Source: Bordetella parapertussis
GTDB taxonomy: Bacteria; Pseudomonadota; Gammaproteobacteria; Burkholderiales; SG8-41
Length of the DNA: 48,192 nucleotides
Assembly (NCBI GenBank): GCA_945864585.1
Contig: CAMBCF010000026.1
Span: forward strand, 1-48,192
Reading direction: 5' to 3'
The stretch's first letter is position 1, and each line of letters starts with the position of its first letter. Below, piece after piece: positions 28,135 to 31,126 of this stretch. The notes beneath the pieces are model-generated. The model made no database searches, was not told where the DNA came from, and worked only from the letters and a program-made list of their open reading frames with translations. The position numbers and the translations under genes were made by a program.

Positions 28135-29679
28135 TTACCCCACCTGCGGATTCAGCCGTTGGCGCTTCGAGTCGAGCTTGTTCAGGGCATTGATATAAGC
28201 CTTGACCGACGCCACCACAATGTCGGTATCCGCGCCCTGGCCATTGACGATACGGCCCTCCTTCGACAGCCGCACCGTCACTTCCCCCTGTGAGTCGGTG
28301 CCGCTGGTGATGTTGTTCACCGAATACAGCAGCAGCGACGCGCCGCTGTTGGCTACCGATTCCACCGCCTTAAACGCGGCGTCCACCGGACCGCTACCCT
28401 GCGCTTCGCAGGTGCGCTCTTTGCCGGCCTCGGCGATCACGATTTTTGCGTACGGCGGTTCGCCCGTTTCGGAGTGCGCGGTCAGCGACACCAGCCGCCA
28501 GTGCTGATTCTCGACATGCTCGATTTCTTCTTCGGTAATCAACGCCTGCAGGTCTTCGTCCAGAATCTCGCGCTTTTTGTCGGCGAGATCCTTGAAGCGT
28601 TTGAACGCCGCGTTGAGCAACTCTTCGGATTCAAGCTGGATGCCCAGCTCGAGCAGGCGTGACTTGAATGCGCTGCGGCCGGAAAGTTTGCCCAGGGTCA
28701 ATCGATTGGTGATCCAGCCCACCGATTGCGCGCTCATGATTTCGTAGGTCTCGCGATGCTTCAACACGCCATCCTGATGGATGCCGGATTCATGCGCAAA
28801 CGCGTTGGCGCCGACCACCGCTTTGTTGGGCTGCACCGGGTAACCGGTAATGCCCGACACCAGCTTCGATGCCGGCACAATTTGCGTGGCGTCGATGCCG
28901 GTGTCGCAGGTAAAAATATCCTGCCGTGTGCGCACCGCCATCACGATTTCTTCCAGCGAGGCATTGCCCGCGCGCTCGCCCAGCCCGTTGATCGTGCATT
29001 CGACCTGGCGCGCGCCGTTCATCACGGCGGCAAGCGAGTTGGCAACCGCGAGCCCCAGGTCGTTATGGCAATGCACCGACCACACGGCTTTGTCGGAATT
29101 CGGAATACGCTCGCGCAGGGTTTTGATCAAGCCGCCGAATTGCTCCGGCAAAGTGTAGCCCACAGTATCGGGCACATTGATGGTGGTCGCGCCTGCCTTG
29201 ATCGCCTGCTCGATGATACGGCACAAAAAATCGATATCCGAGCGGCCCGCGTCTTCCGGTGAAAACTCGATGTTGTCGGTGTAGGCGCTGGCCCATCGAA
29301 TGGAACGCACCGCCTGATCGACCACCTGTGTCGGCTCCATGCGCAGCTTTTTTTCCATGTGTATGGGCGAGGTGGCGATAAAGGTGTGCAGCCGCGGCGA
29401 CCGTGCCACGCGCACCGCTTCGCCGCAGCGGCGCACGTCTTGCTCGTTGGCGCGCGCGAGGCCGCAAATAGTGCTGTCCTTGATCGCGCGGGCCACCGCT
29501 TGCACCGCTTCGAAATCGCCGTCACTCGACGCGGGAAAGCCCGCTTCGATCACATCCACGTGCATGCGCTCCAGTTGGCGCGCAATGCGTAACTTCTCTT
29601 CCTTGGACATCGACGCGCCGGGGCTTTGTTCGCCGTCGCGCATGGTGGTGTCAAATACGATGAGTTTCTCTTTGGCCAT
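28135..29679 (-). CDS. leuA: 2-isopropylmalate synthase LeuA
   Basis: First committed enzyme of leucine synthesis, 514 aa. It condenses acetyl-CoA with 2-oxoisovalerate. The TIM barrel starts at [16 protein letters not shown]; the metal-binding HxH is in [16 protein letters not shown]; and [16 protein letters not shown] follows. The C-terminal regulatory domain (about residues 390-510) that senses leucine is complete. A GGAGAA ribosome site precedes the ATG. Upstream on the same strand lies a leucine-rich leader peptide. Confidence 0.96.
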
Positions 29680-29697
29680 GATGTTCTCCGTTGCTGC

Positions 29698-29738
29698 TTT
29701 TGCCTTGAACGCTTTGAACGTCTAGCGCCAAGGCAAAA
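29698..29738 (-). promoter_or_regulatory. Hairpin in the leuA leader
   Basis: A perfect 10-bp stem, TTTTGCCTTG (29738-29729 on the minus strand) with CAAGGCAAAA (29707-29698), with an inner CGCT/AGCG pairing. It lies between the leader peptide and leuA, close to the leuA ribosome site. It uses part of the T6 run (29740-29735) that follows a weaker 5-bp hairpin (29765-29769 with 29751-29755), so the two structures might compete. There is no textbook terminator. Confidence 0.5.
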
Positions 29739-29796
29739 AATACTGGATTCCTGGCACTGTGGGCGCCAGACCGGATACTGCCAATGGGGGATAAGT

Positions 29797-29892
29797 TTAG
29801 TTTGCGCTTGCGCGCAGCAGCAGGCCGGCCAGCAGAAGGCTGGTCGAAAGTAGCAGTTCTAACACTGCGAGGGCCTGTGATGAATAACTCAT
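29797..29892 (-). CDS. Leucine-rich leader peptide upstream of leuA
   Basis: A 31-codon frame from the ATG at 29892 to TAA. The product has 11 leucines in 31 residues, including LELLL, LLL and a second LLL, read by CTC, TTA, CTG, CTA and CTT codons. It lies 117 bases before leuA on the same strand. This is the layout of an attenuation leader (E. coli leuL is the known example, 28 aa), in which ribosome stalling at Leu codons controls leuA. No ribosome site is seen. The promoter places the transcript start within a base or two of the ATG, so it may be leaderless. Translation is not proven. Confidence 0.68.
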   Translation of the reverse strand: MSYSSQALAVLELLLSTSLLLAGLLLRASAN

Positions 29893-29900
29893 AGCGACGA

Positions 29901-29929
29901 AATATAAAGACTTTTTCCCGGTAGCGCAA
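29901..29929 (-). promoter_or_regulatory. Promoter of the leu leader and leuA
   Basis: Minus strand: -35 TTGCGC (29929-29924), 17-base spacer, -10 TATATT (29906-29901). The ATG of the leader peptide begins 9 bases after the -10 element, so transcription should start at or next to the ATG. Confidence 0.65.
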
Positions 29930-30016
29930 GTTTAGGCCATCGCGCGACTATTGTGTATAGCGGCAGGCGGCTTCGGCGATAATAGCGATTCGCGCAATTT
30001 TCAGGATTTAGCGTTC

Positions 30017-31126
30017 ATGGTGAACAAGAAGGTAGCGATACCCCCTTCCCTCACCCTCGGTCCCTCCCCTGGAGTGGGAGGGAAGACAAAACCCGTCGCG
30101 ACTCGCTTAACCTACCGCGACGCCGGGGTGGACATCGATGCCGGCGATCACTTGGTCGAAAACATCAAGCCCTTCGCCAGGCGCACCCTGCGCCCCGGCG
30201 TGTTGGCGGGCATCGGCGGCTTTGGCGCGCTGTTTCGCGTGCCGCGCGGCTATAAAGAGCCGGTGCTGGTTGCCGGCACTGACGGCGTGGGCACCAAACT
30301 CAAACTCGCGTTTGAATTGAAGCGCCACGATACCGTCGGCATCGATCTGGTGGCGATGAGTGTGAACGATATTCTGACGCTAGGTGCGGAACCGCTGTTT
30401 TTTCTGGATTACTACGCCTGTGGCAAGCTGGACGTGAAATCAGCCACGCAAGTGGTCAAGGGCATCGCGGCCGGTTGTGAACAAGCGGGCTGCGCGCTGA
30501 TCGGCGGCGAGACCGCGGAGATGCCGGGCATGTATGCGGCGGGCGAATACGATCTGGCGGGTTTTGCCGTAGGCGTGGTGGAAAAATCCAAAATCATTGA
30601 TGGAAAAAGCATTAAGTCCGGCGACGTGATTCTGGGACTGGCAAGCAACGGCGCGCATTCCAACGGCTACTCGCTGATCCGCAAGATCATCAGCACCAAG
30701 CGCACTAATTTATCGAGCAAGCTGGGCCGCCGGCCGCTGAAAGATTTAATCCTCGCGCCCACGCGCATTTACGTGAAACCGGTACTGGCGCTGGCCAAAA
30801 GAGTGCGCCTGAAGGGCCTGGCGCACATCACTGGCGGCGGGCTGGTAGAAAATATTCCGCGCGTGTTGTCTGCGGGATTGTGCGCACGTATCGACAAAAG
30901 CGCGTGGCCGATGCCGCCGTTGTTTACCTGGCTGCAACAGCAAGGCAACGTGGATGACAACGAAATGCATCGCGTATTCAATTGCGGCATCGGCATGATC
31001 ATCGTGGTCGATGCGCGCGATGCCGCCAGGGCGCAGGCGCTGCTCACGCGCGCCGGCGAACGCGTGTGGCGCATCGGCGACGTGGTGCGCCGCGCACGGG
31101 GTGCGCCGCAAACGGTTGTGCTGTAA
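30017..31126 (+). CDS. purM: Phosphoribosylformylglycinamidine cyclo-ligase PurM
   Basis: AIR synthetase of purine synthesis, 369 aa from the ATG at 30017. The conserved start of the family, [14 protein letters not shown], begins only at about residue 31. Upstream are about 20 extra residues ([16 protein letters not shown]) encoded by an inserted repeat. Later motifs are [44 protein letters not shown] and THxxGGG-like [11 protein letters not shown]. The catalytic part looks complete. Its stop is directly followed by the purN ATG (TAAATG). Confidence 0.94.
30042..30086 (+). repeat. Interspersed repeat read in frame within the purM 5' end
   Basis: A C-rich tract (CCTTCCCTCACCCTCGG) leads into an 8-bp hairpin, TCCCTCCC (30061-30068) with GGGAGGGA (30076-30083), loop CTGGAGT. 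It resembles the short CCCTCACCC...GGGAGGG hairpin repeats scattered in many proteobacterial genomes, which typically translate as [10 protein letters not shown]. Here it is in frame with purM and adds residues between the start codon and the conserved domain. Confidence 0.75.

Follow-up and report, generated by a model that had tools for sequence, protein, structure and literature searches.

Several described leaders offer points of comparison for the regulation of leuA. The leu leader of Escherichia coli encodes a peptide of 28 amino acids, four of which are leucine (PMC6123439), and in the LEU element of Actinobacteria the leucine codons pair with the Shine-Dalgarno (SD) site of leuA, forming a pseudoknot (Seliverstov 2005, PMC1262725). 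Leaderless attenuator peptides are attributed, in PMC4046766 and its reference 42, to Corynebacterium ilvB and, presumably, to leuA and trpE, and Sinorhizobium trpL also encodes a leaderless attenuator peptide (PMC7298713). The attenuator of C. glutamicum ilvBNC has three hairpins (PMC11857589). A further set of leader ORFs (tnaC, mgtL, speFL and mdtU) is Rho-dependent, with the position of the ribosome thought to control Rho (PMC7815308).

No description of a betaproteobacterial leuA leader of such a kind was found in the open-access literature. The 2004 attenuator survey of proteobacteria by Vitreschak and colleagues reportedly dealt mainly with gamma- and alphaproteobacteria. Here we analyse the region upstream of leuA in a contig deposited as Bordetella parapertussis (CAMBCF010000026.1), the window being the whole stretch of 48,192 nucleotides that was analysed, and compare it with the corresponding regions of related genomes.

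A leucine-rich frame at the predicted transcript start upstream of leuA

The frame preceding leuA in the window (Table 1) encodes MSYSSQALAVLELLLSTSLLLAGLLLRASAN. The first-pass annotation had reported a 31-codon frame with 11 leucine codons of several kinds, and this is confirmed, the codons being of five kinds (CTG, CTT, CTC, CTA and TTA). The promoter that it had described, with TTGCGC and TATATT elements separated by a 17-nt spacer, likewise agrees with the coordinates: eight bases lie between the -10 element and the leader ATG, which begins at the ninth, and the leader stop codon is located 117 nt upstream of the leuA ATG (29679). A strict promoter scan did not pass this promoter, which is too unlike TTGACA; the support for it is comparative.

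By the usual promoter geometry, the predicted mRNA would carry 0-3 nt 5' of the leader ATG. The distance between promoter and ATG therefore places the latter no more than about 3 nt from the predicted transcript start, pointing to a leaderless leader peptide. Since 0-3 nt leave no room for an SD site, the leader transcript contains none (8 nt from -10 to ATG), provided that transcription does begin from this promoter.

Table 1. Features of the leuA leader region and their positions in the window.
Feature	Position	Strand	Support
-35 element TTGCGC	29924..29929	-	TTGY-N18..20-TATATT in 92/159 leuA upstream regions, reverse strand 0
-10 element TATATT; predicted transcript start 29892-29895	29901..29906	-	-10-to-ATG gap of 6-10 nt in 90/92 relatives
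Leaderless leucine leader-peptide ORF (predicted)	29797..29892	-	31 codons, 11 Leu; frame of 25-38 codons in 89/90
Helix P 5' strand CAGGCC, long-range, partner 29821-29826	29872..29877	-	Own-versus-swapped pairing, t = -4.2
Hairpin H0 CCAGC-CTTCT-GCTGG, just 5' of the Leu codon run	29829..29843	-	Stabler than shuffled in 90% of 92; arms covary, t = -4.3; double changes
Helix P 3' strand GGCCTG, overlaps Leu codons	29821..29826	-	Own-versus-swapped pairing
Key Leu codon run CTG CTG CTG, last Leu codon abuts H1	29815..29823	-	In-frame Leu codon abutting H1 in 92/92
Hairpin H1 TGCGC-GCAA-GCGCA, directly after the Leu codons	29803..29816	-	Fold <= -4 kcal/mol in 92/92
Unstructured tract rich in C and free of G, possible landing site for Rho	29783..29796	-	Composition across 92 leaders
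Hairpin H2 CTGGCGC-CCACA-GTGCCAG, not directly followed by a U-tract	29751..29769	-	Arms covary, t = -8.5
Hairpin of the first-pass annotation	29698..29738	-	Genus alignment: restricted to the nearest relative, L003
leuA, 2-isopropylmalate synthase (type I)	28135..29679	-	NCBIfam NF002087 899.5 bits, TIGR00973 709.4 bits

Comparative analysis of the promoter and the leader frame

leuA loci were collected from relatives, yielding 159 distinct upstream regions. Selection was made on the promoter first, as TTGY-N18..20-TATATT between -260 and -130, and neither the ATG nor the frame was used in the selection. The promoter was present in 92 of the 159 regions and in none on the opposite strand; an ATG followed 6-10 nt past the -10 element in 90 of these 92, and in 89 of the 90 it opened a frame of 25-38 codons, a length reached in only 8% and 10% of cases when the two alternative frames were read. 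Leader lengths vary between species, changing in whole codons only, and leucine accounts for 25% of the residues in the promoter-selected set, with all six leucine codons in use and synonymous ones mixed. As in leucine-type attenuators, a short Leu-rich ORF is thus found upstream of a biosynthetic gene, with 89 of 90 frames maintained and leuA downstream.

The alignment of leuA upstream regions in relatives shows that the promoter, the ATG position, the frame, the Leu codons and the hairpins are kept in many Burkholderiales families, the opposite of the missing conservation of frame or Leu codons that the first-pass annotation had named as a refutation, and this comparative evidence supports the leaderless leucine attenuation leader that the first-pass annotation had put forward as a candidate. 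An absence of regulation, with a conserved promoter region followed by a chance ORF, is hardly credible, being contradicted by the conservation of frame, Leu codons and hairpins across families and by lengths that shift by whole codons.

The leader peptide itself presents a dN/dS (pN/pS) of 0.73-1.07 in most groups and of 0.39 in Gallionellaceae-like (Gallionella-type) relatives. Weak constraint on the peptide is as expected if the frame and the Leu codons are of more importance than the peptide sequence. These mild values fit a cis-acting leader of that type; alone, they are no proof of translation.

Conserved RNA structure of the leader

A set of 92 leaders with a Leu/Arg-type C-terminus, anchored on the YTGCSC motif, was aligned at hairpin H1. 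The leaders share a common plan, consisting of hairpin H0, a linker of Leu codons, H1, an unstructured tract and hairpin H2, with H0 located about 30 nt upstream and H2 about 50 nt downstream of H1. Comparison of arm pairing within species with pairing of arms swapped between species yielded t values of -4.3 for H0, -4.2 for the long-range helix P and -8.5 for H2, and of 0.4 for the negative control. A compensatory version of helix P (CAGACC/GGTCTG) occurs in locus L012. For H1, which varies little, covariation is for this reason weak, the exceptions being versions that are shifted or extend past the stop.

A Leu codon abuts H1 in frame in 92 of the 92 selected leaders (CTG in 90, TTG in two), the identity of this codon being partly built in by the selection (Leu/Arg-type C-terminus, YTGCSC anchor) and its in-frame placement not; candidate regulatory Leu codons are hence found immediately before a hairpin, as in known attenuators. 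The stop codon lies 12, 18, 21 or 24 nt from H1, four spacings in all, and in L020, L118, L122, L124 and L166 the hairpin extends past it. Since the abutment holds in all 92 leaders while the distance to the stop varies, it is the Leu codon, and not the stop, that is fixed against H1.

The leader C-terminus often reads LLLRxAR, a recurrence that is mostly a by-product of H1, given that this hairpin can run past the stop codon. This C-terminus could be taken as a sign that activity resides in the peptide or in a short leader RNA, whether exerted in trans or through an arrest peptide, with the Leu codons being incidental; stability is conceivable for leader transcripts that end at H2, and the peTrpL and rnTrpL products of S. 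meliloti do work in trans (PMC7298713). We deem this quite improbable, however, because the peptide is weakly constrained and its C-terminal residues follow from H1, with five leaders ending in ..LLLRR* or ..LLLRP* and H1 lying past their stop. A conserved functional peptide was rejected as a candidate on these same grounds, weak constraint and a C-terminus explained by H1.

Downstream of the frame, structure is absent at +10..+40 from H1. The core of this tract (+26..+31 from H1) contains 0% G and 58% C across the 92 leaders, and their longest G-free run has a median of 22 nt, versus 10.8 expected. A C-rich, G-poor and unstructured tract is therefore associated with the upstream ORF, as in Rho-dependent leaders, and a rho gene is present in the genome of the window.

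Terminator candidates and alternative modes of control

The first-pass annotation had also pointed to a strong hairpin following the frame, with a terminator that was not textbook. The hairpin exists (Table 1), but it is not the conserved one, being found only in the nearest relative; the conserved hairpins are H0, H1 and H2. The remark on the terminator was right, as an intrinsic terminator scan of 29600-30050 found none. The 29698-29738 hairpin was rejected as a terminator, since it is not conserved and a T-run is missing behind it, and H2 was rejected as an intrinsic terminator, since a U-tract is missing in most species. Antiterminator pairing of the linker, H0 or H1 with H2 was rejected for want of a coevolution signal, and own-versus-swapped tests found no alternative pairing of H1 with H2 or with the SD site. 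The leader hence presents no intrinsic terminator with a mutually exclusive antiterminator of the kind expected in leucine-type attenuators.

These results bear on classical leucine attenuation, in which stalling would decide between an antiterminator and a terminator of the intrinsic type, formed by H2 or by the 29698-29738 hairpin. A Leu-rich leader before leuA, the conservation of H2 and a T-run about 9 nt behind it in the genus of the window all agree with such a mechanism. Nevertheless, a T-run of at least 4 within 12 nt of H2 is seen in only 6 of 50 leaders and H2 is A/T-rich in Nitrosomonas, which, together with the outcome of the terminator scan, makes H2 unlikely to be a classical terminator; pairing to H2 does not coevolve in H0, the linker or H1, and the other hairpin lacks conservation. 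We consequently view the classical mechanism as unlikely.

Control could also be exerted on translation, with leader stalling opening or closing the leuA ribosome-binding site, as proposed for speFL/mdtU-like leaders or for the actinobacterial LEU element. The short leaders of Nitrosomonas and Gallionella-type relatives, in which the leuA start is nearby, would be compatible with this mode of control. It is nonetheless improbable, as the spacing between H2 and the start of leuA ranges from 13 to 73 nt, the pairing of the C-rich tract with the SD site stands at -6.73 for own and -7.23 for swapped partners, and that of the linker with the SD site is no better within species (own-versus-swapped t = -1.2). 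Masking of the SD site, whether through the C-rich tract or the Leu linker, was discarded as a candidate, the coevolution signal being missing.

Distribution of the leader across genomes

A covariance model (R1) of the H0-Leu-H1 segment was searched over 300 genomes of the order, returning matches in 83 genomes at E <= 1e-6, from more than 20 families. The best 30 matches in these 300 genomes are all located upstream of leuA, with 24 preceding type I genes and six preceding distant leuA-like genes (about 30% identical); the one gene typed among these six, at L187, is a type II leuA (NF002991 807 bits, TIGR00970 743 bits). Matches without the exact TATATT present TATAGT or a similar element at the same spacing. 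In a class sample of 229 genomes, two matches outside the order were obtained at E <= 1e-6, both from one family. In one of them, L206, a leuA-like gene is preceded by a Leu ORF of the leaderless type; the L205 match, with leuA not nearby, is probably due to chance, as are, probably, the weak matches (scores under about 30 bits) that the leader model gives in GC-rich genomes.

The same leader was observed before distant leuA-like genes in other families (L177, L183, L187, L191, L201 and L204). This suggests either that the gene was replaced while the regulatory element stayed in place or that the leader was transferred. In most loci pssA lies upstream of leuA, and a divergent purM is found beside leuA in eight loci of the genus of the window (L001-L004, L010, L011, L014 and L017), including the window itself (29680-31126). 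The leader has remained in front of leuA despite the replacement of pssA by purM as the upstream neighbour. Sequence conservation across these genomes supports the promoter-ATG spacing, the frame, the Leu codons at H1, hairpins H0, H1 and H2, the tract free of G, the absence of a U-tract and the association with two types of leuA.

Two further observations were made in the genome of the window. Within purM (29951-31126, plus strand), the N-terminal stretch at 30027-30074 matches a short dispersed repeat present at about a dozen other sites in the genome, so that the true start of purM may lie downstream of the repeat. Upstream of ilvB (L212, on C3), a 17-codon frame encoding MRPFWAYLLLGLRLPCN overlaps the predicted ilvB start codon; it lacks a leaderless appearance and may serve the ilv operon as a coupled leader.

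Proposed mechanism and comparison with known systems

The explanation that we favour, and regard as probable overall, is a cis-acting leucine attenuator of leuA, in which stalling at Leu codons would control transcription, probably via Rho and not through an intrinsic terminator. Its leucine-attenuator component is very likely, and for the Rho step we see roughly even chances. From the conserved arrangement we infer translation of the frame, stalling, a response to leucine and Rho as the terminating factor. Transcription would start no more than about 3 nt from the leader ATG, and the ribosome would initiate on a bare 5' end, without an SD site. Under a shortage of charged Leu-tRNA, the ribosome would stall at the CTG CTG CTG run abutting H1, keeping this hairpin open, and by excluding Rho it would allow leuA to be transcribed. 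With plentiful leucine, the ribosome would reach the stop codon and depart, H1 would close and the G-free, C-rich single strand would be exposed, whereupon Rho could load on it and end transcription before or early in leuA. H2 might function as an RNA polymerase pause, or as a barrier that protects the 3' end of a short leader RNA or limits its trimming. More tentatively, these leaders may represent an order-wide set of betaproteobacterial leucine attenuators combining a leaderless peptide with Rho-dependent termination, associated with two distant types of leuA and possibly generating a stable leader RNA that ends at H2.

If this explanation is true, leucine synthesis in a large betaproteobacterial group, including Nitrosomonas and relatives of Gallionella, would be under the control of an apparently undescribed leader family. 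This family would provide a natural, conserved system that couples leaderless initiation to attenuation, and one in which the amino-acid starvation signal is read by Rho, not by a U-tract hairpin. The analysis also delivers a covariance model and defined codon and hairpin mutants for testing.

Among known systems, enterobacterial leuL (Rfam Leu_leader) resembles the present leader in having a short Leu-rich ORF before leuA, stem-loops after it and a presumed sensing of charged tRNA. The present leader differs from leuL in lacking an SD site, in having its ORF at the predicted transcript start and in its G-free, C-rich tract, and a U-tract terminator or antiterminator was not found in it. The Leu_leader covariance model returned no match to the present leader at the gathering score or at E <= 5, and no other Rfam family matches it. 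With the LEU element of Actinobacteria it shares an ORF with Leu codons before leuA and the lack of an obvious terminator, and it is set apart from this element by the pairing test, in which pairing of its linker with the SD site is unsupported.

In the Corynebacterium ilvB and Sinorhizobium trpL leaders the transcript opens with the ATG, an arrangement that is predicted here, and the codons are likewise specific for the relevant amino acid. They are, however, actinobacterial or alphaproteobacterial and have structures of their own, with no sequence seen in common. Similarity to tnaC, mgtL, speFL and mdtU lies in an upstream ORF beside a C-rich, G-poor, unstructured tract without an intrinsic terminator. 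Those leaders are gammaproteobacterial and sense free Trp, Mg/Pro, ornithine and spermidine, whereas the leader described here would read Leu codons and would do so from a leaderless transcript.
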